In this document: in pieces, positions 12,982-48,333 of the stretch
How positions within the stretch are numbered: the stretch's first letter is position 1
How the letters are laid out: every line of letters starts with the position of its first letter
Source: Desulfobacteraceae bacterium 4572_123
GTDB lineage: Bacteria > Desulfobacterota > Desulfobacteria > Desulfobacterales > 4572-123
Direction: 5' to 3'
Assembly (NCBI GenBank): GCA_002084545.1
Contig: NBLJ01000027.1
Location: 1-48,773 of the forward strand
DNA length: 48,773 nucleotides
Notes under the pieces: model-generated
What the model was told of the DNA's origin: nothing
Database searches by the model: none
The model's input: only the letters and a program-made list of their open reading frames with translations
Program-made: the position numbers and the translations under genes

Positions 12982-12998
12982 ATTTTGAAAACTTTGAA

Positions 12999-24015: not shown

Positions 24016-24037
24016 ATTAGACAGGGAGAATATAACT

Positions 24038-27523: not shown

Positions 27524-27548
27524 TAAAAGCGTATCAAGGAGAAAAATG

Positions 27549-28997: not shown

Positions 28998-29016
28998 AGA
29001 TAAGGAGAAACCAGAT

Positions 29017-30417: not shown

Positions 30418-31890
30418 GTGGTTGAATTGAACTTGAAAGTACTCGGGGATCGGAAGATTGAGAAGATCCATCGCACCACCTTGAAGGTACTGGAAGATAC
30501 CGGGGTAAAGGTTTGCCTGCCCCGGGCGGTTGAAATGCTGAAAAAAGCCGGTGCCAAGGTGGGAAAATCGGATCAGGTGCATATTCCGGCAAAACTGGTG
30601 GAAAATGCCGTTGCCGCGTCTCCGAAATCCATGACGATTTTTAATCGAAATGGCGAGGAGGCCATGTGCCTGGAGGATGACCGCACCTATTACGGCACAG
30701 GCCCTACCGTGCCAATGGTGCTGGACCCCTTCAGTGGTGAGCGCCGTGAAAGCTGCCGGGGCGACATCGAAAAAGCAGCACTGCTCTGTGATGCCCTGAA
30801 AAATATTGATTATGTGATGAGCATGGGACTCAGCGGCGGCAGCGATCCCAGGCGCCATGGACTGCATCCGGAGTTTACCGACCGGTTGGACTTTGAGGCC
30901 ATGCTGCGTCATACCGTAAAGCCGATTATTTTTTCGGCCTGGTCCCTGCAGGGCCTGCGGGACATTTATGACATGGCCGCGGTAGTGGCCGGTGGAAATC
31001 AATCCCTGGCCGCCAGGCCGTCGGCCATACATTATGCCGAGCCCACCTCGCCTTTGGTGCACAGCCCCGCTTCTCTGGAAAAGCTGCTTTTTTGCGCGGA
31101 CAAACGTATGCCGTTTTTGTACATGGGCGGCCCCCTGGCCGGAGGCACCGCACCGGTTACCCTGGCCGGCCAACTGGTGCTGTCCAATGCTGAATGCTTA
31201 AGCGGCCTGGTGCTGCACCAGCTTTGCTCTCCGGGGGCGCCTTTTATCTATGGTGTGGGCAGCAACCCCATGGACATGCGCACTACTCTGGCTGCCTACT
31301 GCGGCCCTGACGCTTACCTTAGTTGTATCGCCGGCAAAGAACTGTCGGATTATTACGGGCTGCCGGATTTCAATTTCGGGGGAGTGAGTGACTCCAATGC
31401 CATGGACGGGCAGATGACCTGGGAGGCCGGCTTTTCTCTTCTGCAGGCCGAACTTTGCGGCAGTAATCTGGTCCATGATGTGGGCTATTTAGAGTCGGGT
31501 ATGACCGCCTGCCTCGAGTTGATTGTCTTTTGCGATGAAGTAATCGACGAATTACGTCATTTTAAAAACGGCCTTACGGTAAACGAAGACCATCTTGCCG
31601 CCGAGGTTATCGACCAGATCGGTCCAGGTGGCTCCTACCTGGGGCATGACCATACCTTTAAACATTTTCGGGAAATCTGGTATCCTGCTTTGCGCAATCG
31701 GGATCGCTTTGAGAACTGGCAAAAAGCCGGCGGGTTAAGTCTGGAGAAAAAACTTAACGCCAGAGTGCGCCATATTCTGGAAACTCATCATCCCGAGCCC
31801 CTGTCGCCCGGGAGTGAATCCAAAATAAAAGCGATTATGCAAAAAGCTGCCGAAAGATACGGCCGGCCCGGACATAGGAGTCAGGCATGA
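30418..31890 (+). CDS. MttB-superfamily methyltransferase 3, non-pyrrolysine
   Basis: A 490-residue, full-length MttB homologue. Landmarks are KIEKIHRTTLKVLEDTGVKV, AAVEASPKS-like AAS PKSMTIFNRNGEEAM, PLAGGTAPVTLAGQL, SDSNAMDGQMTWE and IGPGGSYLGHDHT. There is no internal amber codon, so no pyrrolysine. It starts with GTG at 30418 after an AGGAGG site. Its stop overlaps the next start (ATGA), which suggests translational coupling to the MmgE/PrpD gene. As with its neighbours, a quaternary amine substrate and transfer to a corrinoid protein are expected from the family. The corrinoid protein encoded at 42442-43074 is the only candidate in the window. Confidence 0.87.
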   Translation: MVELNLKVLGDRKIEKIHRTTLKVLEDTGVKVCLPRAVEMLKKAGAKVGKSDQVHIPAKLVENAVAASPKSMTIFNRNGEEAMCLEDDRTYYGTGPTVPMVLDPFSGERRESCRGDIEKAALLCDALKNIDYVMSMGLSGGSDPRRHGLHPEFTDRLDFEAMLRHTVKPIIFSAWSLQGLRDIYDMAAVVAGGNQSLAARPSAIHYAEPTSPLVHSPASLEKLLFCADKRMPFLYMGGPLAGGTAPVTLAGQLVLSNAECLSGLVLHQLCSPGAPFIYGVGSNPMDMRTTLAAYCGPDAYLSCIAGKELSDYYGLPDFNFGGVSDSNAMDGQMTWEAGFSLLQAELCGSNLVHDVGYLESGMTACLELIVFCDEVIDELRHFKNGLTVNEDHLAAEVIDQIGPGGSYLGHDHTFKHFREIWYPALRNRDRFENWQKAGGLSLEKKLNARVRHILETHHPEPLSPGSESKIKAIMQKAAERYGRPGHRSQA

Positions 31891-33233
31891 ACGGAAATCA
31901 GATAGCAGCTCGTTTTATCAAGGAAACCACCTGGAAAAAGCTGCCTTCAGCAGTGCGTCAAAAGGCAAAAACCTGCCTTCTGGACAACTTGGGTTGTATG
32001 ATTGCCGGCAGCAGGAGCATTATCACCGGTATTTGCCGCGATTATGCAGACACTGTCTGGCCCCGGGGGGACGAGGCTGCCATGGTGATGCAAAACCGTA
32101 AATCCAGCCTCCTTGGAGCGGCTTTTGTCAATGCCAACACGGCCAACGCGACGGATATGGATGACGACGGTCTTTACTGCGACGGTCATCCGGGAGCCCA
32201 GCTGGTTCCGGTCACCCTGGCCCTGGCCGAGAAGTACCGTCTCAGCGGCATGGAACTGCTGAGTGCCCTGGTGGTGGGCTATGAGGTGGCTCACCGTGCC
32301 GGGGGATGCTGGCACGATTATCATGAGGTTTATCAGGCGTGCGGATCCTGGGGCTCCATGGCCAATGCTGCGGTGGCGGCCAGGGTGATGGGGCTGGATG
32401 AAAATCAGATACAGCACACCCTTGGCATCGCAGAGTATCACGCAGGCAATCTGCCCATGATGCGGGATATCGACCATCCAGCCATGGTTAAACACGGCCT
32501 GGGCTGGGCCGCAATTACCGGGATGATGGCAGCCGGATTAGCCGCCAAAGGGTTTACCGGCATTCCCAGTCTGCTTGGTTTTGAGAAATACCGGCACTGG
32601 TCGGAAAGTTTCGGACGGGAGTACATCATGGTGCGCGGGGTGAGTTTTAAACGCTATTCTTCCTGCCTGTGGAGCCATCCGGCCGTTGTGGCCTGCCGGG
32701 ATGTGATTTCGGCAAATAACCTGGCTCTGGACCGGATCGAAAAAATTGTGGTACACGGCTTTCACGAGATGAAGCGGCTTGGAGACCGCCTCCCACGCAC
32801 AGAGGAAGAGGCAGTATTCAATGTAGCCTGGCCCCTGGCGGTTTATCTTTTAAATGGTGAGATCGAACCTCACCACATGCTGCATGGGAACCTTTCTGAT
32901 GAGGGCACCATGGCAATGGCCCGGAAGATTAAAGTTGTTGAATCGGATGAGATCAACCAGGCCCACCGCCCGGACAGTTACCCGTGCCGGGTGGAGATAT
33001 TCCTGTCGGACGGGCAATGTCTGGATTCGGGCCTTGTCCATTATGAACACAGCAGCACCGGTGATACGGAAACATCTTGTGGTGACTACACGCGCCATGA
33101 AGATGTTGCCGCCAAATTTTTACACATTACCGGGCCGGTAATCGGCAGCCGGTCCGGTCAAAAGCTTCTGGAGACGGTGGAAAATCTGGACCATCTGGAT
33201 GATCTGTCTCCTTTCATAGCCCTATGGTCATGA
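31887..33233 (+). CDS. MmgE/PrpD family protein
   Basis: A 448-residue protein of the MmgE/PrpD family, all-helical domain plus lid. It has VGYEVAHRAG, GSWGSMANAAVAARVMGL, KHGLGWAAITGMMAAGLAAKGFTG and a C-terminal SDGQ segment. Family members include 2-methylcitrate dehydratase, aconitate decarboxylase and iminodisuccinate epimerase, so the chemistry is dehydration, decarboxylation or epimerisation of small carboxylates. Here it is translationally coupled to an mttB gene at the end of the hut-like operon, not near a methylcitrate cycle. The role in this pathway is unknown. Epimerisation or water elimination on an amino-acid derivative is a guess. Confidence 0.85.
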   Translation: MNGNQIAARFIKETTWKKLPSAVRQKAKTCLLDNLGCMIAGSRSIITGICRDYADTVWPRGDEAAMVMQNRKSSLLGAAFVNANTANATDMDDDGLYCDGHPGAQLVPVTLALAEKYRLSGMELLSALVVGYEVAHRAGGCWHDYHEVYQACGSWGSMANAAVAARVMGLDENQIQHTLGIAEYHAGNLPMMRDIDHPAMVKHGLGWAAITGMMAAGLAAKGFTGIPSLLGFEKYRHWSESFGREYIMVRGVSFKRYSSCLWSHPAVVACRDVISANNLALDRIEKIVVHGFHEMKRLGDRLPRTEEEAVFNVAWPLAVYLLNGEIEPHHMLHGNLSDEGTMAMARKIKVVESDEINQAHRPDSYPCRVEIFLSDGQCLDSGLVHYEHSSTGDTETSCGDYTRHEDVAAKFLHITGPVIGSRSGQKLLETVENLDHLDDLSPFIALWS

Positions 33234-33478: not shown

Positions 33479-34357
33479 TTACCCTCTTGCCAGTCGATCT
33501 TCAAGCTTCTGGATCAGGACGGAGCAGGGCAGGGTGAGCATGAGGTACATGACGGTCACCGTTATCCATATTTCCATGGTGAGCAGGGTCCCGGTCATCA
33601 GTTCATTGGCCCTGAAAGAGAGTTCTGGTATGGAAATAACCGAAACAATGGAGGAGTCCTTGATCAGGGAGATGAACTGGCCCGCCAGGGGCGGTAGAAT
33701 ACGCTGGAAAGCCTGTGGGAGGATGATGTATCTCATCTGCTGGTATTTTGTCATGCCCAGGGAGTGGGCCGCTTCCCACTGGCCTTTCCGAATGGACTGG
33801 ATCCCGGCTCTGACGATTTCAGTGATATAGGCACCCTCGAAAATTGCCAGGGTAAACAGGGCGGACAGAAAGGTCGTGAGGTGCTCCGGGGGGGCCAGGC
33901 AGAAGGTCACAATGGATACCAGGAGGTTGTCCCTGCCCTGGAGTGCATCGCCTATGCCGCTGTATGGCAAAAGGTTGTTTCCGATGAAAAAATATACGAT
34001 AAATATGATTACCAGCGGCGGCAGGTTGCGCATGGTTTCAACATATGTTCCGCTGACCAGCCTGAGGAACACCACCTTGGAGGAGCGGCAGATCCCCATG
34101 ATCGTACCTATAATAACGGCCAGAATGGTGCCGAAGATACTGAGACGGATGGTGTTGAAAAGGCCCCACATCAATACATTGGAGACCCATTTCCCGCTTT
34201 CCTCATCAAAGCGGTACAGGAATTGAGGGATTTGCCCCCAGTTCCACTTGTAGTTAAGTCCGATTTCCACCCGGTAATAGATGACCACGCCGATGAGCAG
34301 GAAAATGGCACCCACGATAATGTCTGATTTTTTTAATGGTATATTTTTTTTGTACAT
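33479..34357 (-). CDS. Polar amino-acid ABC transporter permease
   Basis: A 292-residue inner-membrane protein of the HisM/GlnP family with a leading span and the usual five-span core. The conserved EAA-type loop is seen in ITEIVRAGIQSIRKGQWEAAHSLGMTKYQQMRYIILPQAF, which contacts the ATPase. Start 34357 follows AGGAAG and is preferred over an upstream ATG. It is the last gene of the minus-strand operon and lies behind a hairpin. The two permeases of this system would form a heterodimer. Substrate cannot be read from the permease. Confidence 0.88.
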   Translation of the reverse strand: MYKKNIPLKKSDIIVGAIFLLIGVVIYYRVEIGLNYKWNWGQIPQFLYRFDEESGKWVSNVLMWGLFNTIRLSIFGTILAVIIGTIMGICRSSKVVFLRLVSGTYVETMRNLPPLVIIFIVYFFIGNNLLPYSGIGDALQGRDNLLVSIVTFCLAPPEHLTTFLSALFTLAIFEGAYITEIVRAGIQSIRKGQWEAAHSLGMTKYQQMRYIILPQAFQRILPPLAGQFISLIKDSSIVSVISIPELSFRANELMTGTLLTMEIWITVTVMYLMLTLPCSVLIQKLEDRLARG

Positions 34358-34384
34358 GGAACTTCCTGAAGCTTGCTTACAAAA

Positions 34385-34424
34385 GTGTAATGATGCCGGC
34401 ATAACCTGCCGGCACCATTACACA
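34385..34424 (-). other. Hairpin between binding-protein and permease genes
   Basis: A long inverted repeat, GTGTAATG with GCCGGC facing GCCGGC with CATTACAC, lies in the 83-bp gap between the binding-protein stop and the permease start. Such structures behind a binding-protein gene often protect the upstream message and reduce readthrough. On the minus strand it is not followed by a T-run. Confidence 0.65.
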
Positions 34425-34440: not shown

Positions 34441-35289
34441 TTATTGAAGCAGTGCTTCCCATTCCAGGCTCTTCCACCAGTAGTCGACCTTCTTTTGGAT
34501 GAAACCGTTGTTACGCACAACGGTAATCCAGTTGTTCAGATAAAACAGCGTATCCGGATCGCCCTTGGGGACGCCCATGCAGATAGGCTGCTGCTCGAGA
34601 TTTTTGTCCAGAAACATCAGAGTATCGGGATATTTGGCAGCCAACTGGGCCGGCTGGGGAGCTGTACCCAGAAAAGCCGTTGCCTTGGCGTTCAGGAGTT
34701 CCTGAATCATGGGGCCTTCGTCGGGGAACAGTCTCACTTTGGCATTTTTGTAGGTTTCCTTGGCCAGCGCAGCGCCGGTGGTGCCCAACCGTGCAATAAT
34801 GGTGTTGCCTTTTTTGTCCAGATCCATATAGTCGGAGACTCCCGCTGCAAAATCTTTGTGAACCACGATATTCATGCCTGCGTAATCGTAGGGAGTCGTG
34901 AAGTTGATTTTCAAGGCCCGCTGGGGCGTTCCGGTCATACCGGCGATAATCAGGTCAAATTTGTTCGTCAACAGCGATGGGATGAGGCCTTCCCACTTGG
35001 TGGGTACAAATTCAATCTTGACCCCCATGTCTTTGGCCAGTTGTTTGGCGACATCGATTTCGAATCCGACCCATTCACCCTTTTTGTCCTGCATGGCCCA
35101 GGGCACGAATGAGGATAGGCCGATTCGCAGCGTCCCTTTGCGCATCACCTTGTCGATAATACTGGATTTAGCGAGTTGTTTATTGATGTCATCGGCAGAC
35201 ACAGGCCCAGCAAGGCAGAACATCAGCGTCATCAAAACAGCCGTTGTAATCGCCAACACACGTCTTTTCCCCGTCATCTTTTTTTTCAT
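34441..35289 (-). CDS. Periplasmic amino-acid-binding protein of an ABC transporter
   Basis: A 282-residue family 3 solute-binding protein. An N-terminal signal peptide with basic start, hydrophobic core and a likely cut after VSA (residue 32) sends it to the periplasm. The mature part follows the pattern of glutamine/histidine/lysine-binding proteins: LRIGLSSFVPWAMQDKKGEW, GFEIDVAKQLAKDMGVK, WEGLIPSLLTNKFDLIIAGM, and the ligand-contact region TPQRALKINFTTPYDYAG. Its start follows AGGAG. Its position in an operon with mttB, mtmB and hut-linked control suggests a histidine derivative or betaine as ligand. This is inference and needs a binding assay. Confidence 0.9.
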   Translation of the reverse strand: MKKKMTGKRRVLAITTAVLMTLMFCLAGPVSADDINKQLAKSSIIDKVMRKGTLRIGLSSFVPWAMQDKKGEWVGFEIDVAKQLAKDMGVKIEFVPTKWEGLIPSLLTNKFDLIIAGMTGTPQRALKINFTTPYDYAGMNIVVHKDFAAGVSDYMDLDKKGNTIIARLGTTGAALAKETYKNAKVRLFPDEGPMIQELLNAKATAFLGTAPQPAQLAAKYPDTLMFLDKNLEQQPICMGVPKGDPDTLFYLNNWITVVRNNGFIQKKVDYWWKSLEWEALLQ

Positions 35290-35474: not shown

Positions 35475-36227
35475 TTAAAGGATTTGGCTGAGAAAAAGTT
35501 TTGTACGATCTTCTTTCGGACTGGTAAAAAAGTGATCCGCCGTGCCTTCCTCCACCTTCATGCCATCCTCCATGAAAATAACCCAGTCACTGACTTCCTT
35601 GGCAAACCCCATTTCGTGGGTAACGACGACCATGGTCATACCCTCGACAGCCAAATTTTTCATCACCTCAAGAACTTCTCCGATCATCTCCGGGTCCAGG
35701 GCACTGGTTGCCTCATCGAACATCATGACTTTCGGGTTCAGCGCCAGCGCTCTGGCAATGGCCACCCGCTGCTGCTGTCCGCCGCTGAGCTGGCTTGGAA
35801 AGCTGGCGGCTTTATCTGCTATGTTCACCTTGTTCAGCAGGTGCATGGCCTCCTCTTCGGCTTCACGCCTGGATCGCTTGCGTACGAGCATCTGTGCTAT
35901 CGTGATGTTTCTAAGAACCGTCAGGTGCGGGAAGAGATTGAAGTGCTGAAACACCATGCCCACTTCCCTTCGAATTTCCAGGCGGTTTTTTTTATCGTCG
36001 TCAAGCGGAATACCGTCAATGGTGATCGATCCTGAATCGATCTCCTCCAGCCCGTTCAGACATCGCAGGAATGTCGATTTCCCGGAACCGGACGGCCCGA
36101 TGAGGACCACAACTTCACTACGGCGAATGTCGGTGGAAAAATTCTTCAATGCCACCACACCGTTGGAAAAAGTTTTGCCGATGCGGTCAACATGGATAAT
36201 ATCATCCCCAAATTGTTTGGCGCTCAT
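35475..36227 (-). CDS. Polar amino-acid ABC transporter ATP-binding protein
   Basis: A 250-residue ATPase with Walker [11 protein letters not shown]-loop [13 protein letters not shown], signature [15 protein letters not shown], Walker [14 protein letters not shown] and the switch His in VTHEMGFA. It energises uptake through the two permeases. Start 36227 follows GAGGT, while upstream ATG codons have no ribosome binding site. The gene lies after one permease gene and before the binding-protein gene. Confidence 0.92.
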
Positions 36228-36313
36228 TCGGTTACCTCGATTTTTAATAAAATCGCCGTGCGATTTGTTTGGAATCAACTCCGTCTGCATTTTAAGAGCA
36301 GCGGTGAGCAATG

Positions 36314-37132
36314 TTAAGACAATACCCTGTAGCGTTTTTCAAAATAGGCCACGACCTGTGACAGTATAAGCGTCAGCGCCAGATAAATTGCCGCGATGGT
36401 AAAATATATCTCAAATACCAGGAATGTCTCCGAGGCGATTTCATTGGCGTACATGGTCATTTCGTATATGGCAATGATACTGACCAGGGACGAATCCTTG
36501 ATCAGGGACACTGCCTGGCTTGTCAAAGGCGGAACAATACGCCGTATGGCCTGCGGCAGAATAATATAACAATAGTTATGAAACGTGCCCAATCCCAGGG
36601 CGTAGGAGGCTTCCCATTGTCCTTTGTTTACGGCCACGATGCCGGATCGGTAAATTTCCGAGGCATAGGCCCCTTCAAAAAGGCTCAGGGCCAGGATTCC
36701 TGCGGTGAATCGATCGATATCCAGTATGGGGGCCACGACGAAATACATAAAGAATATTTGTACCAGTAACGGTGTGTTGCGTGTGATTTCGAGATAGATG
36801 CGGGCAATACCCCTTGCCAGCAACGAGTTGGAGAGCCGCATCAAGGCGGTAACCAGCCCGATAATATAGGTCAGGATGAGGCTCATCCAGGTGATGTTCA
36901 GTGTAACCTTGAGTCCTTCCAGAATAGGGCCGGCAATAAATCGACCGTCGTCAAATTGATAAAGGTACTTGGGAATTTGAAACCACTGCCAGTAATATCC
37001 CTGATCTTCAGCGCCATGGAGGAGAAGGAGCACACCCCCGGTCATCAGAGCCAGATATGCCGCAATATCAAAAAGATAATTTCGTTTACAAAATTGAATG
37101 ATTGAAATTTTCATAGGAATAATTTTTATCAT
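36314..37132 (-). CDS. Polar amino-acid ABC transporter permease
   Basis: A 272-residue membrane protein of the same family as the permease encoded at 33479-34357. It has the loop [43 protein letters not shown]. Both permeases share an extended N-terminal periplasmic segment ([15 protein letters not shown] here and GQIPQFLYRFDEESG in the other), indicating that they arose by duplication and work as a pair. The start is uncertain (37132 or 37114), and neither candidate has a clear ribosome binding site. Confidence 0.88.
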
Positions 37133-37204: not shown

Positions 37205-39322
37205 CTAACCGGACATTATTGATTCCGGCTGGATCTTTTCTAACCTGACGACAACGTGTTTCAGATTCGGGAATCCTGATATGGGGTCCACATCGGTATC
37301 GTCGGTCAATAAATTTACATTGCCCTGATCCCAGCCATGACCGACCTGAAGTATACCGGGCAACACTTCGTCTGCTTTGAGAATTTTTGCTGAAAGCATC
37401 AGCTCGCCGGTCTTGCTGACAATGCGGACTTTTTCATCATTGGAAATGCTTAAACGCTCGGCGTCCATGGCGTTGATTTCCACTACCGGATCGGGGTTCC
37501 GCCTTTTAAAACGAACAATGTTGCGGTATCTGGAATGGTAATAAAACGGACTTCGTGCACCGGTGGCCAGCAAAAAGAGATTTCTTTTACCGCAGGGATG
37601 ATGGCGGGGAGGAATGTATTCGGGGAGTGACGGCAAGTCCCTGAATAATGTTACATCCGACGTCAGTTCGATTCTCCCACTGGGGGTGGGAAAGGGTATA
37701 CTTTCAAACTTACGGCGCCGTAAAGGCGCGTATTCAATACCTTGTGTGCTTTTTTCCAGTGCCTTGAAATCAATGCCGCTGCCTTCAAGAATCCATTGAT
37801 TGACCGCCGTTTCATCGGGCCAGGGAAAATATCGCATGCCAAATCCCAGTTCATCGGCCAGATCCTTCCAGAAATCGTATTCGTTGCGGATTCCCTTGAA
37901 CTCAATTACCTTGCGGGATAAGGCGGCAAGGTGTTTATATGGATAGTAGTGCAGTTCACTACGTTCCAGGAATGAGGCAGCCGGAATGATGTAATGGGCC
38001 AGTTTGGCGGTTTCGGTGATAAACAGATCTTTGACCACCAAAAGATCCAGACTGCTCAACGCCTGCTTCACTTTGGCGGCGTTGGGATTGGTCAGCACCG
38101 GGTTGGCCCCGGAAATAATACAGCCGCGGAGTGGATAATTCCCTTTTCCCAGCATGTAATCCATGGCAGCCAATGATGAACATTGCTTCCGGAATTGATA
38201 CAGCAGGGGAAACCGGTCCGCCCCGATGGGTTGAAAATCACTTAGCGGCAGATGATCGTAAAGCGCCAGGCTCCGGACATTCGGATATTCCGGCCATGGG
38301 CTGCCGCCGGGAATATCGGCGGAGCCGCAAATGTTTCCCAGTGATACCATCGCCCTGATGACGTTTACACCGTTGACCTGGTGTTCCAGTGAAATGCCCA
38401 CATATTGAGATATGCCGGGAACATTTGCGGCGATCAATTCGGCCAGTTGCCTGATCGTATCGATTGAAACACCGGTCTCACGGGATACGTACGCCGTATC
38501 GAATTTTTTCGCGTAGGCCCTGAAATCATCAAAACCGACCGTGTATTGCCTGACAAAGTCCGCGTCGTATGCGTCCTCCTGAATCAAATGGTTGATCAGC
38601 CCCCAGACCAGGGCACCATCGGTACCGGGGATGATTCTGACCGCCATTTCGGCATATCTTTCGGTTTTGGTTTTCCGGGGATCGATGACGACGATCTTTG
38701 CGCCCTTTTGCCGGCCTTTCAGAACTTCCTGCATAAAAGGCGGGTGCGTGATGTCAAGGTTTGCCCCCCAGATCAGGATGACATTTGAGTCGGAGTAATC
38801 CTCGCAGGCGGGATAGTATCCCTGAACAAGGTGATAGGCGATGTGGCGCGCGGCGTAGCAGACCGAATCGGCAGAGAAGTAATTGGGAGAACCAAGCGCG
38901 TGAATAAATCTTCTGGCATACTCTTCCTGCTGAAGAAAACCGAGGGCCTCACCCGTCCAGGCGCCGACGGATCTGGCTCCCAGTTCGTCCTTGATTTTAG
39001 ATATTTTATCTGCAATTTCAGCAATTGCCCGGTCGTAGGGAATCGGTTCGAACTTCCCGTTTTGCATTCGTTTGAGGGGCGTCAATATTCTGTCGCGATG
39101 ATAAATCATCTCCAGGGCGGCAGTGCCCTTGGGACAGATTTTGCCACGGCCGACGGGATGACTTTTGTCACCGGTTATTTTTGTCAGCCTGCCGTTTTCG
39201 ACCTGGACATTGATGCCGCAATGCATATCACACTGCCTGCACAAAGTAGATATAACACCATTTTTAAGGTCGGTTTCAGATCTCACTGTATCACCAATTG
39301 TTGGATCCGGTACGTACGGCAA
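37205..39322 (-). CDS. Molybdopterin-dependent oxidoreductase, cytoplasmic, unknown substrate
   Basis: A 705-residue protein of the DMSO-reductase superfamily. An N-terminal [4Fe-4S] site is seen as C28-x2-C31-x3-C35-x27-C63 (CRQCDMHC to CPKG). Cys155 in ADSVCYAAR is placed where the protein ligand to molybdenum or tungsten sits. There is no Tat leader, so it is cytoplasmic. No electron-transfer subunit is adjacent. The start is TTG at 39322 behind GGGAA, 16 bp after mttB4. Members of this branch include hydratases and transhydroxylases as well as redox enzymes, so a non-redox hydration or an oxidation of a ring intermediate are both possible. Its place between mttB4 and the transporter suggests a catabolic role on the imported compound. 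Confidence 0.83.
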   Translation of the reverse strand: MPYVPDPTIGDTVRSETDLKNGVISTLCRQCDMHCGINVQVENGRLTKITGDKSHPVGRGKICPKGTAALEMIYHRDRILTPLKRMQNGKFEPIPYDRAIAEIADKISKIKDELGARSVGAWTGEALGFLQQEEYARRFIHALGSPNYFSADSVCYAARHIAYHLVQGYYPACEDYSDSNVILIWGANLDITHPPFMQEVLKGRQKGAKIVVIDPRKTKTERYAEMAVRIIPGTDGALVWGLINHLIQEDAYDADFVRQYTVGFDDFRAYAKKFDTAYVSRETGVSIDTIRQLAELIAANVPGISQYVGISLEHQVNGVNVIRAMVSLGNICGSADIPGGSPWPEYPNVRSLALYDHLPLSDFQPIGADRFPLLYQFRKQCSSLAAMDYMLGKGNYPLRGCIISGANPVLTNPNAAKVKQALSSLDLLVVKDLFITETAKLAHYIIPAASFLERSELHYYPYKHLAALSRKVIEFKGIRNEYDFWKDLADELGFGMRYFPWPDETAVNQWILEGSGIDFKALEKSTQGIEYAPLRRRKFESIPFPTPSGRIELTSDVTLFRDLPSLPEYIPPRHHPCGKRNLFLLATGARSPFYYHSRYRNIVRFKRRNPDPVVEINAMDAERLSISNDEKVRIVSKTGELMLSAKILKADEVLPGILQVGHGWDQGNVNLLTDDTDVDPISGFPNLKHVVVRLEKIQPESIMSG

Positions 39323-39337: not shown

Positions 39338-40813
39338 TTAGGCTTCAAACTGTTTACCATCAAGGTCGGTAAGGGCTCCGGCACGAATTGCATCGAGGGC
39401 TTCCTGAATCTTTTCGGGCAATGGTTCCGGTTTGTGGTTATGCAGGATATTAATGGCTTTTTGGGCGGCATTATCACCCCAGGTTTTACTGCCCATTTTT
39501 TCCCATAAATCGGGGTTGGTACGATTACAGAGCCGGGGCTGCCAATGTTCCTGTTTGAAAAATTTCATGGTATGCCCGGTGGAGATAAAAGCCCCCTGGG
39601 GCCCAACCTCCCTGATAACATCCATGCCGATATGTTCCGGGTCGATATCAAATCCCTTGATAACCCGTCGGACATAACTGATTATTTCGGCATTCATTAC
39701 CAGCGCCGCAGGGGAGCCCACCAGGCCTTGCCCCATATAGGCAATGTCATGAACGAGGTTGGCCCCGTCCAGGCCCGCCATGAGCAAAGACATGGCCCAT
39801 TCCATGCCGGCCTGCTGGTCGATGCAGTTGGAGTCGCTTGCACCGGCGGTGCCCCACATGGGAATACCGTAATAATGATACAGATCGCAGCAGGCTGAAA
39901 GTGCCAATCGGTATTCCGGGCAGCCATAGCTGCAGGTGGATGTTTTCATGTCCAGGGTAGACATGCCAAAGCCGGAGATGATCGGTGCACCCTTGGCTCT
40001 GAGCTGGTGCAGTACCACGCCGCTCAGGGCCTCGGCGTTTCCGACGGTAACGGCTCCGGCCAGGGTGACCGGGGCGCTGGCACCGGACATCATCCCGGGG
40101 GTATAATTGACCGGAGCGGCGTTGTCGGCGCAGAAAAAGAGCTTTTGAATGGCGCCCGAAGAATGCAGAAGGGGAGTCAGGGGCTCGGCATAATGAATGT
40201 GGATCGGTTTTTCCCGCAATGCCTTTTTGCCGCCCATAACCGCCGCGGCCATGTCATTGATGATTTTAATATCCTCCATGCCGGCGGCAGTGTAAAATAT
40301 GGGTTTGGTTGAATTTTCAAGTTGTGCTTTGAAAGAATCGATATACATCAGGTTTGTCGGTGAATCATAGGGAAGGGCATAGGAGCCCAAAAAATCGATT
40401 TCTTCCAGATCATCGGCGATTCTGGCGGCATTGGCGACATCTGAAAGTCTTGAGTCTCGAAGAACCCCGGTTTCAACGTCCCAGGTTTTGATAAGATCGG
40501 TGCCCATGCCGAAATAAGTTTTATTACCCTCGAGAAGCATGGCTTCTTCACCCATCCGGTTATACAGGGTAATTCTGGAAGGGGCGCTGCGGATACACTC
40601 TTCCACCAGATAATTGGGGATCCGAACGATATTGTCTTTTTTTATCCGGCAGCCGGCATCGGCCATCATGTCAATGGCTTCCGCATCCATTACCTTGACA
40701 CCGATCGTCTCGAGAAGTTCGAGAGTAGCATAATGGATGGTATTGATTTGGTTTTGAGTTAGAATCCGGTAGGTGGGTACGCATTGCGATTTGAAGCCGG
40801 TATTCATTGCCAT
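39338..40813 (-). CDS. MttB-superfamily methyltransferase 4, non-pyrrolysine
   Basis: A 491-residue full-length MttB homologue beginning MAMNTGFKSQCVPTYRILT. The start at 40813 follows GAGGA. Core motifs are MMSGASAPVTLAGAV, GASDSNCIDQQAG and VGPQGAFISTGHT. No amber codon occurs in the frame. It is the closest relative of the copy at 29017-30387 and shows the about 32-residue N-terminal segment that the other lacks. It follows mtmB on the same strand after a 207-bp gap with a strong hairpin. Family knowledge points to a quaternary amine as substrate and the corrinoid protein encoded at 42442-43074 as methyl acceptor. Confidence 0.88.
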   Translation of the reverse strand: MAMNTGFKSQCVPTYRILTQNQINTIHYATLELLETIGVKVMDAEAIDMMADAGCRIKKDNIVRIPNYLVEECIRSAPSRITLYNRMGEEAMLLEGNKTYFGMGTDLIKTWDVETGVLRDSRLSDVANAARIADDLEEIDFLGSYALPYDSPTNLMYIDSFKAQLENSTKPIFYTAAGMEDIKIINDMAAAVMGGKKALREKPIHIHYAEPLTPLLHSSGAIQKLFFCADNAAPVNYTPGMMSGASAPVTLAGAVTVGNAEALSGVVLHQLRAKGAPIISGFGMSTLDMKTSTCSYGCPEYRLALSACCDLYHYYGIPMWGTAGASDSNCIDQQAGMEWAMSLLMAGLDGANLVHDIAYMGQGLVGSPAALVMNAEIISYVRRVIKGFDIDPEHIGMDVIREVGPQGAFISTGHTMKFFKQEHWQPRLCNRTNPDLWEKMGSKTWGDNAAQKAINILHNHKPEPLPEKIQEALDAIRAGALTDLDGKQFEA

Positions 40814-40963
40814 ATGGTTGTCCTCATTTTTCAACTCAGGTCGGCATGGTTTTTCAAATACTCAGAATCGGGCGCCGGTAAAAGGATGTCTTTCTAACGA
40901 TATTTTTCAGAACAGGCTGAAAATAGTTTATGCTTTTCCGAAATGGAGTGTATTGTTGAATTA

Positions 40964-41020: not shown

Positions 41021-42403
41021 TTAAAAGAGAAACTCCACGCCCATTTCAGCAATTTCATCCTTGACTTTTTTGAACATGTCAAGATGTTCGGATGTGGGAA
41101 CGGCTTTGTCCACGTCATAACATTCCTGGTATTGACTGCCCATGGGGGCCGTAGCGGCCTGGTCTTCATATTTGGCCAGAAGCTTGTTCGCTATTTCGTT
41201 TGCTTTTTCTCTTGTCATTCCCTGCCGGGCAACGGCATGGCCGACTTCAGCGCCCATTCTTGCTTCCAGCGGTGTTGCCCTGTTGCGATATTTGTTTCGG
41301 GTGGAGGCCATTTCCCAGAGATGCCAGCCGGATACGGTGCTGACAAGGGCATGGCAGGCGGTTTCATAAAAAAGCATTTCCGTCATGGGGCCGGCGTTTG
41401 CAAACCCGTTGGAGGTGTATAACAGGTTGCTGTTGCGGGCCATTGCCTGACCTGCCATTGAGATCGGCCACAAAAGTTCCCGGGTGGTGTTGGACCCCCA
41501 GTTAAGGTGAAAGGGAAAGTGCTGGTTAAACATGGCGCCGTAGATGCACAATCCATTGAGGCTGTACGCCACGAGTGCCACGGCAACACCTTCCGATCCG
41601 CCGCACCAGCCGCCGTAAATGGGACCTGTCAGGTTGCCGGTAAAGCAGCCGTACTGAGCGCAGTGAACCACTCGGTTGAGCAGGGTATCCGCGGTTTTAA
41701 ACTCGGTAAGAGTCCCGAGAATACGGGTGTCGGTGGTGCGAACGCCCCATTCGTTATTTGAAACGGCAATCTGGCCGCTGTCATGCTCCGCGGTTCCCAC
41801 GGCAACGAAAAAAGTGCCCGGACGGCCGGTCTGTTTGGCAGCCAGTCTGAGGTTATAGATATGCTGGGTGCAGCCGTTGATTTCTGTTGGGCCCGCGGAT
41901 CGAATTTTCTGACCCATGGAATCTTCCAGGATCGGGGCGCAGAAACCGTCCAGAAGGGGCTCTTTGAGATAAGCCAGACATTGTGAATAGTGCAGGCTTT
42001 CATCACAGGTGGCATCGCCCGAGTAGATGCAGAAAGGAGGCAGCGTATCTTCCACCTTACGGTGCTGCCACAGCACGGCATCCTTTCCCGCTCCGACCCA
42101 GTACTGCCCCCTGGCCATGTAGAGCGCTTCTTTTATTTCATCATCCGTTACTTTGATAATGCGGTGGGTATCCGTATTATAAAGTCCAACCTCTCGAAAA
42201 AGTTCCCATCCGGCCTTCCATATCCGGTCGGCCATCTCGTCGTCCACCGGGACGGGATTGCCGTGGTCGCATTTGATCTCATATTTTTTAACAATTTCCT
42301 GCAGTTTGGGCGTAAACAGTTTGGGAAGAAAATCATCTTCATCCATCTGCGGGCCGGTATTGGATCGATCCTGTATTTCCCAAAGACGATATGCGGTTGT
42401 CAT
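41021..42403 (-). CDS. MtmB-family monomethylamine methyltransferase homologue without pyrrolysine
   Basis: A 460-residue protein of the length and pattern of MtmB. The C-terminal half is very typical: TPLEARMGAEVGHAVARQGMTREKANEIANKLL, then QYQECYDVDKAVPTSEHLDMF. In methanogen MtmB an in-frame UAG near residue 202 encodes pyrrolysine. Here the frame reads through the matching region (about residues 200-212, VAVGTAEHDSGQ) with ordinary codons and no amber codon occurs anywhere. The methyl acceptor would be the corrinoid protein encoded 38 bp upstream in the same transcript. The start follows AAGGAGG. The substrate is therefore unlikely to be handled by the classical pyrrolysine chemistry. Confidence 0.85.
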   Translation of the reverse strand: MTTAYRLWEIQDRSNTGPQMDEDDFLPKLFTPKLQEIVKKYEIKCDHGNPVPVDDEMADRIWKAGWELFREVGLYNTDTHRIIKVTDDEIKEALYMARGQYWVGAGKDAVLWQHRKVEDTLPPFCIYSGDATCDESLHYSQCLAYLKEPLLDGFCAPILEDSMGQKIRSAGPTEINGCTQHIYNLRLAAKQTGRPGTFFVAVGTAEHDSGQIAVSNNEWGVRTTDTRILGTLTEFKTADTLLNRVVHCAQYGCFTGNLTGPIYGGWCGGSEGVAVALVAYSLNGLCIYGAMFNQHFPFHLNWGSNTTRELLWPISMAGQAMARNSNLLYTSNGFANAGPMTEMLFYETACHALVSTVSGWHLWEMASTRNKYRNRATPLEARMGAEVGHAVARQGMTREKANEIANKLLAKYEDQAATAPMGSQYQECYDVDKAVPTSEHLDMFKKVKDEIAEMGVEFLF

Positions 42404-42441: not shown

Positions 42442-43074
42442 TTATTCATTCAACAGTCCGGCCATCAGACTCGGTGCGGAGCCCGCGTCATAGCAGTAAA
42501 GATCGGCACCGATTTCATCAGCCCAATCCTGCGTGGTCGGCGCGCCGCCGATAACCACTTTATACTTATCTCTCAACCCTTTGTCCTTCAAGAGATCGAT
42601 AATTTCCTTCTGGTGCGGCATCGTTGTGGACATCAAAGAGGAGGCGGCGATAAAATCAGCTCCCATCTCTTCGGCGGTTTTTATAAAAATCAGAGGATCA
42701 ACATCATATCCAACATCCTTTACCTGAAAACCATTGGCTTCCAGCATCAGCTTCAAGATGTTCTTGCCGATCTCATGCAGATCACCCTTGACGGTCCCCA
42801 CGATCACCTTGCCCTTGTTTTCGACAACGGCACCCTCAAGCATTTTGGAACGGCACAGTTCAACCGCAGCCGCCATTGCCTCGCCGGCCTGCATCATTTC
42901 CGGAAGAAATATCTCCAGTTTTGCAAATCGCTCCCCCACCTCGCCCATTGCATCGGTAAGGGAGGATATGATCTTCATCGGATCAGTGCCGTCACCTATA
43001 AGTTTTTCAGTTAACGCTACGCTTTCATCTTTGTTGCCGGATGATACAAACCGACATAGATTGTCCAACGACAT
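42442..43074 (-). CDS. Corrinoid methyl-carrier protein (MttC/MtmC type)
   Basis: A 210-residue protein with an N-terminal four-helix cap domain (about 1-85) and a C-terminal B12-binding Rossmann domain (about 88-210). The base-off cobalamin motif DLHEIG has its ligand His at residue 100, and SSLMSTTM and VIGGAPTT complete the pattern. It carries the methyl group from the MttB/MtmB-type enzymes to a folate-linked second methyltransferase, which is not encoded in this window. Start 43074 follows AGGAGG. It is the first gene of the minus-strand operon, behind a promoter with a HutC-like operator. It is the only free-standing corrinoid protein here for five methyltransferases. Confidence 0.93.
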   Translation of the reverse strand: MSLDNLCRFVSSGNKDESVALTEKLIGDGTDPMKIISSLTDAMGEVGERFAKLEIFLPEMMQAGEAMAAAVELCRSKMLEGAVVENKGKVIVGTVKGDLHEIGKNILKLMLEANGFQVKDVGYDVDPLIFIKTAEEMGADFIAASSLMSTTMPHQKEIIDLLKDKGLRDKYKVVIGGAPTTQDWADEIGADLYCYDAGSAPSLMAGLLNE

Positions 43075-43335: not shown

Positions 43336-44073
43336 CTACTCGCCATTTCTTGTAAAATCGGAATTATCAAGCATGGGGGTGAATGTGTCCATGAAAGCCA
43401 TCTCTCCCCTCATGAAATATTCAACATAGGTAACCGGTTTTTCAAATGAGTACTGGACGCGCTGAATACGGAAGACCGGATACCCCGGATCTACCTGAAA
43501 AAGCCTGGCCGTTTCTTTTTCCAGGACAATGGCCGTCATGCTCTGGCTGACCCGGGTGAGGGGAAGATGATATTTGTTTATCAGGATGTCATGGATCGAT
43601 CTGCCTTGAAGATTTTCCCATAGTATGCCTGCGCACATGTCGGCTCGCAGGTAGCGGATCGCGTAACGAACCGGTTTTTTATCAAAGAACCAGAGTTGGC
43701 GAATGAGCACCACCTGGCCATTGTGGTCCAGCATTTTATCAATATTTTCAGGCGGATCAATAACCTGCGATTCAAGTATTTCGGATGTGATCTCAACATT
43801 GAGATCTTCCGCCCATTTCCGAAAAGGGCGTATTTTGAAAAAACCAGACGTATAATAATTTTTTTTCTTAACAAACGTCCCCTTACCGGGAATACGCTCA
43901 ATAAATCCCTGTTCTACTATTTTGTCCAGTGCTTTTCGGGCGGTCATGCGGCTTACGCTGAATGTTTTTGCAAGCTGGTTTTCAGACGGGATGGCGTGGG
44001 TAAAATTTTTTGATTCTATCCCCTGTATGATGTAATCTCTGATTTTTTCATATTTCGGGTAATTTTTGGCCAT
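43336..44073 (-). CDS. GntR-family regulator, HutC (UTRA) subfamily
   Basis: A 245-residue regulator. Residues about 1-70 form the winged helix, with IPSENQLAKTFSVSRMTARKALDKIVEQGFIERIPGKGTFV. Residues about 95-240 form a UTRA effector domain with RYLRADMCAGILWENLQGRSIHDIL and a C-terminal PVTYVEYFMRGE. HutC proteins repress histidine-use genes and respond to urocanate. Whether this one senses urocanate or a methylated analogue is unknown. The gene lies between two operons that both carry TTGTATATACA-type sites, so it very likely controls both. It is transcribed on the minus strand toward the corrinoid operon. Confidence 0.9.
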   Translation of the reverse strand: MAKNYPKYEKIRDYIIQGIESKNFTHAIPSENQLAKTFSVSRMTARKALDKIVEQGFIERIPGKGTFVKKKNYYTSGFFKIRPFRKWAEDLNVEITSEILESQVIDPPENIDKMLDHNGQVVLIRQLWFFDKKPVRYAIRYLRADMCAGILWENLQGRSIHDILINKYHLPLTRVSQSMTAIVLEKETARLFQVDPGYPVFRIQRVQYSFEKPVTYVEYFMRGEMAFMDTFTPMLDNSDFTRNGE

Positions 44074-44324: not shown

Positions 44325-44479
44325 TCATGATTTTACAGATGTTTACCGTTTACAAATCCAAAAATTCAGGGCTCGCGCGTTTTGTTAAATTTTTGATGAC
44401 AGACATGCTTTTACGAATAAAGTGAGGGCGGGTGACGCTCTGCGATGTAAATTTTTTTCCTAATATGGAGAGTACAAAA

Positions 44480-46033
44480 ATGAAGCAGGTACTGCTGGAT
44501 AAAGGTCGGCTGTCGATTGACGATATCGTGGCGGTTGCCCGTTATGGTGCGCCGGTTGGAATCACGAATGCGGGTGAGCAAAGGGTCGAGCGCACCCGGA
44601 AGCTGATCGCCAAGTGGGTCAGAGAGGAGAAAAATATTTACGGCATTACCACCGGGTTCGGGGCTTTGTGCAATGTTTCCATTTCAGAATCCGATACCCG
44701 TGCATTGCAGCAGAAAATTATTATGAGCCATGCCGCCGGAGTCGGCAATCCGCTTCCTGAAGAAGTTGTGCGGGCCATTATGGCCATTCGTGTGCATGAC
44801 CTTGCCATGGGCCATTCCGGATGCCGCATCAAAACCCTCCGTCATTTGCTGGCATTTTTAAATGACGGCGTTACGCCGGTGATTCCGGAAAAGGGTTCGG
44901 TGGGCGCCAGCGGCGACCTGGCACCCACGGCGCATATGGGCCTTGTTCTCATCGGTATGGGGGAAGCGTTCTACAAAGGACAAAAGATCTCCGGAGCCCT
45001 GGCCCTGGAGAAAACAGGGCTGACGCCCCTGGTTCTTGAAGCCGGTGAAGGCCTGGCCCTGATAAACGGTACCCAGGTCATGACCGCGATTGCTTCGCTG
45101 GTGGTTCGTGATGCGGTTCGGCTTTCAAAGCTGGCCGATATTGCCTGCGCCATGAGTCTTGAAGTCCTTATGGGCAGCAACAGTGAATTTGATCCAAGAA
45201 TCCACCAGGTCCGTCCCCATCCGGGTCAGATCGCATCGGCGGACAATATGCTTCGGCTGACTGAAGAAAGCCGGATTATTCTTTCCCATGTCGGCTGTGC
45301 ACGGGTTCAGGATGCTTATACCCTGCGCTGTTCGCCCCAGATCCATGGCGCGAGTAAAGACGCGGTTACACATGCACAGCGTGTCGTTGATATCGAAATT
45401 AATTCCACAACTACAAACCCGCTGATCTTCCCGGATACCGAAGAGATCCGGCTTGGAGGAAATTTTCACGGCCAGCCCATTGCCATGGCGGCCGATTATC
45501 TTTCCATGGGGATTGCCGAACTGGGTAATGTGTCGGAACGTCGAATTGAACGGCTGGTCAATCCGCAACTGAGTGAACTGCCGGCTTTTCTGGTAAAAAA
45601 CGGCGGCCTTAATTCCGGATTTATGATTGCCCAGTATGCCGCTGCGGCCCTGGTGTCCGAAAACAAGGTGCTGGCACATCCGGCCTGTGTGGATTCTATC
45701 CCTACTTCGGCCAACAAGGAAGACCATGTGAGCATGGGTACCATTGCCATTCGTCAGTGCCGTGAGATCCTGAACAATGTCGAGCATGTTATCGCGGTTG
45801 AGTTGATGTGCGCGGCCCAGGCCTATGATCTTATCGCCGAGAACAATCCCATTGAAGCCGGCCGGGGAACCATGGAAGCCTACCGGGTGATTCGGGAGGA
45901 GATATCGTACCTGGCGGAAGACCGGGTTATCTCGGAAGATATTGAAGCCATGGTGGCCCTTATTCGCAGCAACCGGATTGTTGAAGCCGTTGAAAAAAAA
46001 GTGGGCCCGATAAAATGCTGCACCCAGGATTAA
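44480..46033 (+). CDS. hutH: Histidine ammonia-lyase 2 (classical type)
   Basis: A 517-residue MIO lyase, with Ala143-Ser-Gly145 in GSVGASGDLAP, IYGITTGFG, His84 in MSHAAGVG, RPHPGQ, RVQDAYTLRCSPQ and LGGNFHGQP. These classical pocket features, lost in the copy at 24038-25585, indicate action on histidine or a side-chain N-substituted histidine. One change is notable: PTSANKEDH has Lys413 where HAL enzymes usually have Gln. The ATG at 44480 follows GGAGAG and is preferred to an upstream GTG. It is controlled by a HutC-like operator. The product would be urocanate plus ammonia, or a methylamine if the amino group is methylated. Confidence 0.88.
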   Translation: MKQVLLDKGRLSIDDIVAVARYGAPVGITNAGEQRVERTRKLIAKWVREEKNIYGITTGFGALCNVSISESDTRALQQKIIMSHAAGVGNPLPEEVVRAIMAIRVHDLAMGHSGCRIKTLRHLLAFLNDGVTPVIPEKGSVGASGDLAPTAHMGLVLIGMGEAFYKGQKISGALALEKTGLTPLVLEAGEGLALINGTQVMTAIASLVVRDAVRLSKLADIACAMSLEVLMGSNSEFDPRIHQVRPHPGQIASADNMLRLTEESRIILSHVGCARVQDAYTLRCSPQIHGASKDAVTHAQRVVDIEINSTTTNPLIFPDTEEIRLGGNFHGQPIAMAADYLSMGIAELGNVSERRIERLVNPQLSELPAFLVKNGGLNSGFMIAQYAAAALVSENKVLAHPACVDSIPTSANKEDHVSMGTIAIRQCREILNNVEHVIAVELMCAAQAYDLIAENNPIEAGRGTMEAYRVIREEISYLAEDRVISEDIEAMVALIRSNRIVEAVEKKVGPIKCCTQD

Positions 46034-46158: not shown

Positions 46159-48333
46159 ATGAATGATCACTGCCCGGTTAAACAAAATATTGATATTCTC
46201 CTTGAAGCCGAAGCCGCTCAAACCGTACTGGATCCCGAACCGCGCCGGCATATGACCGGTCTGCTCCATCTGCTGGAGGAGATTGCCGCAGGCCGGGCGG
46301 CGATGGGGCATTTGGATGCCCTTGCCGCCATGGCAGACAGACTGGCCGCGGCCCGGGAAACCGCGGCTGCAGCTTTGGGCCGAAAGTTTCTGAATACTCT
46401 GGCAGGTGAACGGGAAGTTTTTCAAAGCCATATTGAGAGCCGCAACTGTCCCACGGGCGAATGTGACCTGCTTGCTCCGGCCCCCTGTCAAATGGCCTGC
46501 CCGGCCGGGATTGATGTGGCCTGCTATGTGAGTCTGATCGGTCAGGGGCGCTATGCCGAAGCCGTGGACGTGATCCGCCTGGACAATCCTTTCCCGTGGG
46601 TCTGCGGGTTGATTTGTGTGCACCCCTGTGAAACCGAGTGCCTCCGCCAACGTCTGGATACGCCGATAGCCATTCGCGATTTGAAAGCCTTTGCCGCCCG
46701 GCAGGCCATGTCAGCCGGGCTTTGGCGATTGGCGCAGGTACCGGCTCCCGCCAACGGCCAACGGGTTGCGGTCATCGGGGCCGGTCCGGCAGGGCTTTCG
46801 GCCGCCTATCATCTGGCATTAAACGGCTATGCGGTGACCGTGTTCGAGAAACTGCCCATGGCCGGTGGTATGATGGCAGTGGGTATTCCACCTTACCGGC
46901 TGCCCCGGGAGCTGCTGACGGCCGAAGTCGAGCTGATTCAGAGTCTGGGGGTGGAGATTCGAACGGAGGTCGCCTTTGGCAGGGATGTTACCCTGGAAAG
47001 GCTGCGTGCCGATGGCTATGGCGCCTTTTTCGTGGCCACCGGTCTGCACCTCAGCGGGCGTTTGAACGTTCCCGGCGAAGACCTGTCCGGGGTACTCAAA
47101 GGAGTGGATTTTTTACGGGAGGTCTCTCTGGGCCGGTCGGTATCGCTGGGCCGTCGGGTGATCGTCATCGGGGGCGGCAATGTGGCTATTGATGTGGCCC
47201 GCTCGGCCCTGCGGGCGGGGGCCGGGACGGTATCCCTGGTATGCCTTGAAAAGCGGGAAGAGATGCCGGCCTGGGAAGATGAAATCAAGGAGGCCCTTGA
47301 AGAAGGGGTCGGACTGACCAACTGCTTCGGACCCAGCCGGTTTATTGAAGAAAACGGCCGTGTGGCCGGGTTGGAATTCAAACACTGTACCTCTGTATTC
47401 GACGAGGATCGGCGCTTCAACCCCTGCTACGATGAATGTGTATTGAATTTAATGAAAGCCGATAATATTATTGTTGCCATTGGTCAGGCCGGGGATGTGG
47501 AATTTGCCAGGACCGAAGGCATGGCCCTGACCTCCCGGCATGGTTTGGCCGCGAATGCCGTAACCTATCAGACGCCGGTGACAGACGTATTTGCCGGCGG
47601 TGATGCGGTTTACGGGCCCCGCTCGGTGATCGAGGCCATCGGAGCCGGCAAGGCGGCGGCCCGCAGCATCCATTGCTACCTTCAGGGGCTGCCGCTGCCT
47701 CGAATGGCGGCACTTCCCGTGCGGCGCATGCAAACAGAGGTTTTCGAAATGTCGGCCATGCGCAAAATGGAACTGCGGCGTCCCAGGCTTCCGGCGGCCG
47801 ATCCGATTCTGCGCCGCCGTACCTTTGAACGCCTGGAAACCGAACTGTCCCCAGCCCAGGCCCGGGATGAAGCCCGGCGCTGCCTGCGCTGTGATATCTG
47901 CAAGCGCTGCGGCCAGTGTGCATCGGTCTGCAGGGAGAAAATGGGCCTGGACGCCCTGCCTTTCAATAATTTTGACTCGCCTGATCCGCCTGCCGGTGAT
48001 TTCAGGGTGACCACCGACAATTGCGTGCTGTGCGGGGCCTGCACCGAAAACTGCCCCACCGGCGCTATCCGGATTGAGACGCATAACGGGGAGTGCCGAC
48101 TGAGTTTTTGCGGCACCGTGCTGTGCCGGGACCAGATGGAATACTGCCGGGAGTGCGGCGCCGAACTGGGGGCCACACGCTATCTGGACCATGTTCATCA
48201 CCGTATGCAGGGAATTGATCCTCTGCAGCCCCGGCGGCTTCTGTGTGCGGATTGTATCCGAAAAGATCTTGAAGACCGTTATCTGGCGATTCCGGCAGGC
48301 CGGCGGTCACCGGTCATCCATCTGGATGATTGA
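46159..48333 (+). CDS. GltD-like FAD/NAD(P) oxidoreductase with extra iron-sulfur domains
   Basis: A 724-residue fusion. Residues 1-105 look like a decayed NuoF-type iron-sulfur tail (EVFQSHIESRNCPTGEC) in which the usual CGLGQ cysteine site is lost (AAAALGRK). Residues 110-180 carry the GltD N-terminal cluster (CQMACPAGID, CGLICVHPCETEC). FAD-binding VIGAGPAG begins near 205 and NAD(P)-binding VIGGGNVAIDVA follows. Two ferredoxin-like clusters end the protein (CDICKRCGQCASVC and CVLCGACTENCPTGAI). It lies 125 bp after hutH2, probably in the same transcript. It could pass electrons between NAD(P)H and ferredoxin-level carriers, for example to keep the corrinoid reduced. This role is inferred from context only. 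The start has no strong ribosome binding site. Confidence 0.82.
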   Translation: MNDHCPVKQNIDILLEAEAAQTVLDPEPRRHMTGLLHLLEEIAAGRAAMGHLDALAAMADRLAAARETAAAALGRKFLNTLAGEREVFQSHIESRNCPTGECDLLAPAPCQMACPAGIDVACYVSLIGQGRYAEAVDVIRLDNPFPWVCGLICVHPCETECLRQRLDTPIAIRDLKAFAARQAMSAGLWRLAQVPAPANGQRVAVIGAGPAGLSAAYHLALNGYAVTVFEKLPMAGGMMAVGIPPYRLPRELLTAEVELIQSLGVEIRTEVAFGRDVTLERLRADGYGAFFVATGLHLSGRLNVPGEDLSGVLKGVDFLREVSLGRSVSLGRRVIVIGGGNVAIDVARSALRAGAGTVSLVCLEKREEMPAWEDEIKEALEEGVGLTNCFGPSRFIEENGRVAGLEFKHCTSVFDEDRRFNPCYDECVLNLMKADNIIVAIGQAGDVEFARTEGMALTSRHGLAANAVTYQTPVTDVFAGGDAVYGPRSVIEAIGAGKAAARSIHCYLQGLPLPRMAALPVRRMQTEVFEMSAMRKMELRRPRLPAADPILRRRTFERLETELSPAQARDEARRCLRCDICKRCGQCASVCREKMGLDALPFNNFDSPDPPAGDFRVTTDNCVLCGACTENCPTGAIRIETHNGECRLSFCGTVLCRDQMEYCRECGAELGATRYLDHVHHRMQGIDPLQPRRLLCADCIRKDLEDRYLAIPAGRRSPVIHLDD

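Follow-up and report, generated by a model that had tools for sequence, protein, structure and literature searches.

A pyrrolysine-free MtmB-family methyltransferase beside histidine-utilisation genes in a Desulfobacteraceae bacterium, with N-methylated histidine as a possible substrate

The window, that is the whole 48,773-nucleotide stretch analysed here (contig NBLJ01000027.1 of Desulfobacteraceae bacterium 4572_123), carries methyltransferase, transport and histidine-degradation genes in a single island (Table 1). On the minus strand, the set from 33479 to 43074 comprises two permeases, an ATPase, a solute-binding protein, a molybdopterin oxidoreductase (MoOx), the MttB homologue d, an MtmB-family protein and a corrinoid protein. 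On the plus strand, the order from 21234 to 33233 is an FchA-like protein, FtcD, HutI, HutH2 and HutU2, directly followed by the MttB homologues a, b and c and then by a PrpD-family protein. The MttB a ORF overlaps the HutU2 gene and its true start is probably later. HutH, HutU, HutI and FtcD all score above their curated cut-offs, as expected of a histidine utilisation pathway. The gene adjoining mtmB (42442-43074) provides the cognate corrinoid protein of a three-component methyltransferase. The best NCBIfam match of this corrinoid protein is MtbC, at 193 bits (below the cut-off of 350).

Table 1 Features of the window, in order of position
Feature	Position	Strand	Evidence and remarks
CODH/ACS cluster and pterin-binding methyltransferase	10520..18849	-	possible methyl-group sink
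GntR/FCD regulator	20347..20997	-	profile match
Cyclodeaminase / methenyl-THF cyclohydrolase-like (FchA-like)	21234..21824	+	PF04961; FchA 146 bits, below cut-off 275
Glutamate formimidoyltransferase FtcD	21841..22746	+	TIGR02024 416 bits, above cut-off
Imidazolonepropionase HutI	22762..24015	+	TIGR01224 371 bits, above cut-off
Variant histidine ammonia-lyase 2 (HutH2)	23990..25585	+	TIGR01225 548 bits, cut-off 539; Asp at His83 position
Variant urocanase 2 (HutU2)	25787..27523	+	TIGR01228 634 bits, above cut-off
MttB homologue a, non-Pyl (Met)	27363..28997	+	PF06253 match from residue 51
MttB homologue b, non-Pyl (Cys at Pyl column)	28966..30387	+	
MttB homologue c, non-Pyl (Val at Pyl column)	30418..31890	+	
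MmgE/PrpD-family protein	31887..33233	+	end of hut-MttB operon
Second ABC permease	33479..34402	-	profile match
Family-3 solute-binding protein	34441..35289	-	carboxylate-site Arg kept, amino-site Asp replaced by Thr
ABC ATPase	35475..36311	-	profile matches
Polar amino-acid-type ABC permease	36314..37132	-	profile matches
Molybdopterin oxidoreductase (MoOx), formate-dehydrogenase-like	37205..39322	-	Pfam; TIGR01591 334 bits, below cut-off 666
MttB homologue d, non-Pyl (Ala at Pyl column)	39338..40834	-	PF06253 334 bits
MtmB-family methyltransferase without pyrrolysine, 460 aa	41021..42403	-	PF05369; TAA stop; Val200 at Pyl202 column
Cognate corrinoid protein, 210 aa from ATG behind AAGGAGG (alternative GTG at 43116)	42442..43074	-	B12-binding and B12-binding_2
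GntR/UTRA regulator, HutC-like	43336..44073	-	TIGR02018 125 bits, below cut-off 220
Histidine ammonia-lyase 1 (HutH1)	44432..46033	+	TIGR01225 665 bits, above cut-off 539
FAD/Fe-S oxidoreductase, GltD-like	46159..48333	+	relative (45%) beside mtmB in locus L147 only

The mtmB ORF starts at an ATG behind AAGGAGG, ends at TAA and contains neither an internal stop nor an in-frame TAG. In a Pfam search the protein matches PF05369 at 307.3 bits (cut-off 25; E 2.3e-91) over positions 4-449 of the 450 of the profile, and it aligns with M. barkeri MtmB1 (PDB 1l2q/1nth) at 201 bits over residues 5-458. In the NCBIfam search, no model matched it at E 0.001. An alignment of 89 rows places Val200 in the column of Pyl202 of M. 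barkeri MtmB. The run around this site is GRPG-TFFVAVG in the window protein versus GRPG-MGVXGPE in the M. barkeri enzyme. The protein thus lacks the in-frame UAG that marks Pyl-type MtmB. An earlier sequence-only reading had described a full-length MtmB homologue without internal amber codon, with the region of about residues 200-212 coded normally, and both statements are borne out here. Our genome collection contains 12 relatives at 73-81% identity; the match covers residues 1-460 in 11 of them and 1-457 in the other, so that the ORF is not due to chance. An alignment of 14 rows shows many invariant columns, and the genomes of the relatives span several phyla. Judged from its sequence, the protein is real, intact and functional-looking. 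An AlphaFold model computed on the 14-row alignment (pLDDT 44, pTM 0.30) was set aside. A plasmid search gave no match.

The assembly (3.18 Mb in 168 contigs, 88.3% complete, 7.5% contaminated) encodes pyrrolysine machinery. Contig C3 carries pylSc, pylB, pylC, pylD and pylSn, all of which exceed the curated cut-offs of their profiles, and any idea that the genome is without pyl genes has to be dropped. The order at this locus (L013 350-6045) is pylSc, a thioesterase-like ORF (assigned by eye), pylB, pylC, pylD and pylSn, then a methyl-THF methyltransferase. A PylC-like Pfam model had no match in the assembly, where the TIGR PylC model exceeded its cut-off. tRNA-Pyl was found neither by ARAGORN in eight contig stretches nor by Rfam in two stretches and the window, which we do not read as absence. 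Five diverse MttB homologues (L015-L019, on contigs C150, C100, C129, C144 and C124) have one in-frame TAG each, always in the same alignment column; this column holds Met, Cys, Val and Ala in MttB a, b, c and d of the window. One organism, or a mixed bin, would thus carry many Pyl-MttBs. Since both the pyl genes and the five TAG-containing mttBs are in the assembly, the absence of Pyl from the window MtmB does not result from missing machinery. Unless the pyl and TAG contigs are contamination, the organism uses Pyl elsewhere but not in this protein.

A search of the assembly for the MtmB family found three stretches: besides the window gene, there are two fragments of a disrupted copy on contig C29. 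TAG occurs in none of the three. A pyl operon accompanied by a second, UAG-containing mtmB had been named beforehand as the combination that would speak against a new substrate class; the operon is present, and no TAG-containing mtmB was found in this 88%-complete assembly. The C29 copy (L014 2770-3770) is shortened, broken into two frames and has Asn at the Pyl column. It is adjoined by an intact corrinoid gene (L014 3831-4484). Among the 12 genomes that contain the close relatives of the window MtmB, 2 have a PylSn match, which indicates that the clade does not need Pyl.

MtmB-family matches were found in 41 of 389 genomes of the class. These 68 matches include 3 with TAG, 2 with TAA and 63 without any stop. 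In the phylum of genome G399, which is titled Anaerolineae and contains locus L031, 7 of 301 genomes have matches and none has TAG. The Pyl-free protein is therefore the ordinary form of MtmB in these bacteria. A tree was built from 138 hits, reduced to 88 rows by leaving out rows shorter than 350 aa and near-identical copies, plus M. barkeri MtmB. The window protein lies within a clade of 28 rows (SH-aLRT 100, stem of 1.24 changes per column), and between this clade and the Pyl rows lie branches with SH-aLRT 97, 95 and 87; the tree is a quick one in which SH-aLRT is the only support and long branches meet, including that of M. barkeri MtmB, so that the clade is tight and its deep neighbours are unsure. 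Its members come from genomes titled Desulfobacterales (many), Desulfobulbaceae, Anaerolineae, Spirochaetaceae and Deltaproteobacteria.

The clade differs from Pyl-MtmB in the pocket. E229, E259, Q333 and Y335, which we take to be the residues contacting Pyl in MtmB, are present in M. barkeri MtmB and in all three TAG rows but in none of the 28 clade rows. All 28 have Val at the Pyl position, Ile or Leu at 229, Leu at 259, Asn at 333 and Phe at 335, with I, L, N and F at the four columns in the window protein. In a protein this strongly conserved, so uniform a change of the pocket points to a substrate that is both fixed and different. From the sequences, the substrate of the clade likely differs from that of Pyl-MtmB.

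Two further observations concern the family. A far PF05369 branch found in G034, G165, G088, G190 and G177 (L038, L041, L043-L045, L116-L118, L120, L122) has a gap at the Y335 column, and G034 and G165 each hold several copies. At L024 (2499-8383), two divergent corrinoid/MtmB pairs belonging to different clades surround an MttB gene.

A new substrate class had been proposed for this protein from the sequence alone. The pocket makes a different substrate likely; the general idea is not novel, a Pyl-free MtmB with another substrate being already in print (PMC9768040, in its accessible part; PMC13044021). A role beyond methylamine for non-Pyl MtmB was suggested in 2022, and the non-Pyl MtmB superfamily protein Ga0180325_111810 of strain DCMF was more abundant on dichloromethane (both from the accessible part of PMC9768040). 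In 2026, MtqB, a non-Pyl MtmB of Methanococcoides methylutens Q3c, was shown to act on tetramethylammonium and choline, and a tree of 1,061 MtmB sequences left the remaining non-Pyl members without known function (PMC13044021). The window protein resembles MtqB in its family, in its lack of Pyl, in the corrinoid gene next door and, as we infer, in having a substrate other than methylamine. Unlike the window protein, MtqB is archaeal, is coupled to coenzyme M and is reported near the Pyl clade (compared by description); its pocket signature is Met/Cys. Ga0180325_111810 also lacks Pyl and, going by its description in the accessible part of the source, can be likened to the window protein. M. barkeri MtmB1 (1L2Q, 1NTH) shares homology over its full length, with Pyl202 replaced by Val200 and E229/E259/Q333/Y335 by I/L/N/F. 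The non-Pyl MttB superfamily (MtgB and others) follows the same logic as the window MtmB, namely a Pyl-free enzyme, a corrinoid partner and a quaternary amine, and four of its members lie in the window itself. MttB and MtmB have no significant sequence homology according to the accessible part of PMC9842639, which, with that of PMC6855144, gives the background on MttB.

The neighbours of mtmB were surveyed at the 27 other clade loci (one very short), with flanks of up to 14.8 kb. As many contigs are short, the following are minimum counts. A corrinoid gene adjoins mtmB in 25 of the 27. Relatives of MttB d (66-82% identity) and an MtbA-type UroD gene are each found near mtmB at 14 loci, a GntR/UTRA regulator and a molybdopterin oxidoreductase each at 12, a solute-binding protein at 8 and an ABC ATPase at 7. 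A RACo gene occurs in L142; within the window, neither RACo nor a UroD/MtbA-type gene adjoins mtmB. HutU lies beside mtmB at three loci, L166, L142 and L148 (in the last as a 300-base fragment at the contig end), and HutH at L166 and L142. In all three, the hut gene adjoins the HutC-like regulator. Random placement would give 0.07 loci with HutU in the clade flanks versus the 3 observed, a rough figure that assumes independent loci. The three loci and the window occupy separate branches of the clade. At the other 24 loci no hut gene was seen beside mtmB, and G010 and G276, each assembled into a single contig, have their hut genes far from mtmB. HutU had no match in G276, G389, G391, G398 and G400, and HutH none in G329, G389, G391, G394, G398 and G400, with only fragments in G392 and G399. 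Histidine can therefore not be the end product throughout the clade unless other routes exist.

HutH2 and HutU2 of the window (23990-27523) represent a recurrent anaerobic hut variant. The position of His83 of P. putida HAL is occupied by Asp in five of six HutH2-type rows (window, G328, G228, G386 and G341) and by Cys in the sixth (G313), while the canonical HutHs compared keep His. HutH1 has a canonical pocket with His83 and Glu414. An assignment of HutH1 as an ergothionase was rejected, with 426 bits to a solved HAL versus 225 to ergothionase. For HutU2, S-methyl thiourocanate hydratase (NF058531) is the best hit at 653 bits, but this is below the cut-off of 880 and the assignment was not retained.

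The variant hut module recurs together with MttB a and/or b in G328, G228, G301 and G357, all four of which have a clade mtmB. The transporter, too, is seen in G328, G301 and G357, the ATPase and permease being 84-87% and the binding protein 84-94% identical. In G301 the contigs with the hut module and with mtmB both break off within a binding-protein gene, the former containing its residues 1-171 and the latter residues 214-282 (91%). This makes it probable that the module and mtmB adjoin each other in G301 as they do in the window. HutU2 is present at 78% identity or more in 11 of the 389 genomes (one a fragment). A clade mtmB, according to a list compiled by hand, occurs in 5 of these 11 and in 15 of the 378 others (Fisher p 8e-5, kinship ignored). 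In all five, MttB adjoins HutU2 or its operon. The six other HutU2 genomes lack a clade mtmB, and MttB is visible only in G235 (38%); in three of the six the contigs are short. Thus, HutH2/HutU2 are not strictly tied to demethylation.

The transporter gives a further hint. In LAO/HisJ-type binding proteins an Arg holds the carboxylate of the ligand and an Asp its ammonium group. In all eight distinct readable rows of our solute-binding proteins the Arg is kept and the Asp is replaced by Thr, Ser or Ala. For comparison, 3k4u and AncCDT-1 keep both residues, and the relative 9e2b has Ser for Asp. The loss of the Asp fits a ligand methylated at the alpha nitrogen.

From the family, the lack of Pyl, the changed pocket residues, the order and recurrence of the genes and the altered binding-protein site, all of which are observed, we infer catalysis, substrate, order of demethylation and methyl acceptor. 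The best explanation, which we put forward tentatively, is a Pyl-independent MtmB-family methyltransferase acting on N-methylated histidine within a route of import, demethylation and hut degradation. The substrate would be imported by the co-oriented ABC transporter. MtmB would take a methyl group from it, most likely from an alpha-N-methylated form (histidine betaine, also called hercynine, or a partly demethylated form), and pass it to the corrinoid protein encoded next door. By analogy with MttB/MtgB and MtqB, the methyl transfer may be of the SN2 type, with the enzyme positioning a quaternary (or lower) amine close to the Co(I) corrinoid. The MttB homologues would remove the remaining methyl groups. 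All the methyl groups would be passed on to tetrahydrofolate and into the Wood-Ljungdahl pathway, and the island's own hut enzymes would degrade the histidine set free. The methylhistidine hint of the sequence-only reading fits this gene neighbourhood.

With some reservation, the proposal may extend to the whole branch (Desulfobacterales, Anaerolineae, Spirochaetaceae and Deltaproteobacteria), which would demethylate N-methylated histidine without Pyl, along an anaerobic route in which histidine betaine loses its methyl groups one by one to corrinoid, the histidine is degraded and the methyl carbon is fed into the Wood-Ljungdahl pathway. Literature searches on histidine, hercynine or methylhistidine in combination with MttB, corrinoid or anaerobic demethylation found no relevant report, and as far as they reach the link of this MtmB clade to histidine is new; it is also testable. 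Histidine betaines are made by fungi and cyanobacteria. If the proposal is true, these compounds have an anaerobic sink in sediments, for which no assignment was found in the literature searched, and a further class of pyrrolysine-independent substrates is added to the MtmB family. The clade offers a conserved, testable gene set pointing to a substrate. As pyl genes and five TAG-containing mttBs stand beside a Pyl-free MtmB, the question of which methyl donors need Pyl becomes testable in one genome.

Four other readings were weighed. It is rather unlikely, though worth keeping in mind, that the substrate is an N-methyl amino acid or some other betaine of an amino acid (glycine betaine, proline betaine or an aromatic betaine) and that hut genes were recruited in some members only. 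The hut linkage is indeed confined to a minority of loci, and the amino-acid-type ABC transporter, MttB and MoOx recur without it. The neighbour at L021/L152 is a ferredoxin-type 2-oxoacid oxidoreductase, read as IorA-like from its sequence and not from a family search. However, hut genes stand beside the clade mtmB on separate branches, in the window and at L166, L142 and L148. Less probable still is an MtqB-like methyltransferase for choline or tetramethylammonium with incidental hut surroundings. MtqB is the only non-Pyl MtmB of shown function (PMC13044021), and its corrinoid partner is annotated MtbC-like, MtbC being also the best match of the window corrinoid protein. Choline does not agree, though, with an importer of the amino-acid type or with hut genes, and MtqB is placed near the Pyl-MtmBs (PMC13044021, Figure 6 legend; set apart by description), from which the branches named above separate our clade.

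Also improbable, to a slightly greater degree, is a substrate in which a ring nitrogen of histidine is methylated (N-tau or N-pi), with the variant HutH2 and HutU2 acting alongside MtmB. His83 is an imidazole-side residue, which gives its replacement by Asp some weight here, and a bacterial breakdown of N-tau-methylhistidine has been published (Beliaeva 2022, as cited in the accessible parts of PMC11432326 and PMC9960084). However, the Asp that would hold a free alpha-amino group is missing from the binding protein, and G386 and G341, whose short contigs show no MttB, have Asp83 as well. An inactive relic, or a methylamine enzyme working without Pyl, is very improbable: MtqB has slight methylamine activity (PMC13044021), but the frame is intact with a ribosome site, close relatives with many invariant columns persist in several phyla, and the pocket residues are replaced uniformly and not at random.

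Genes for a possible methyl sink are also present. Methyl-THF methyltransferase-type genes are found at L013 5248-6045 and in the window at 10520-11455. In the neighbouring CODH/ACS cluster of the window, a CODH-type (Prismane) gene (15265-17276) is split over two overlapping frames, perhaps by a frameshift or an assembly error.
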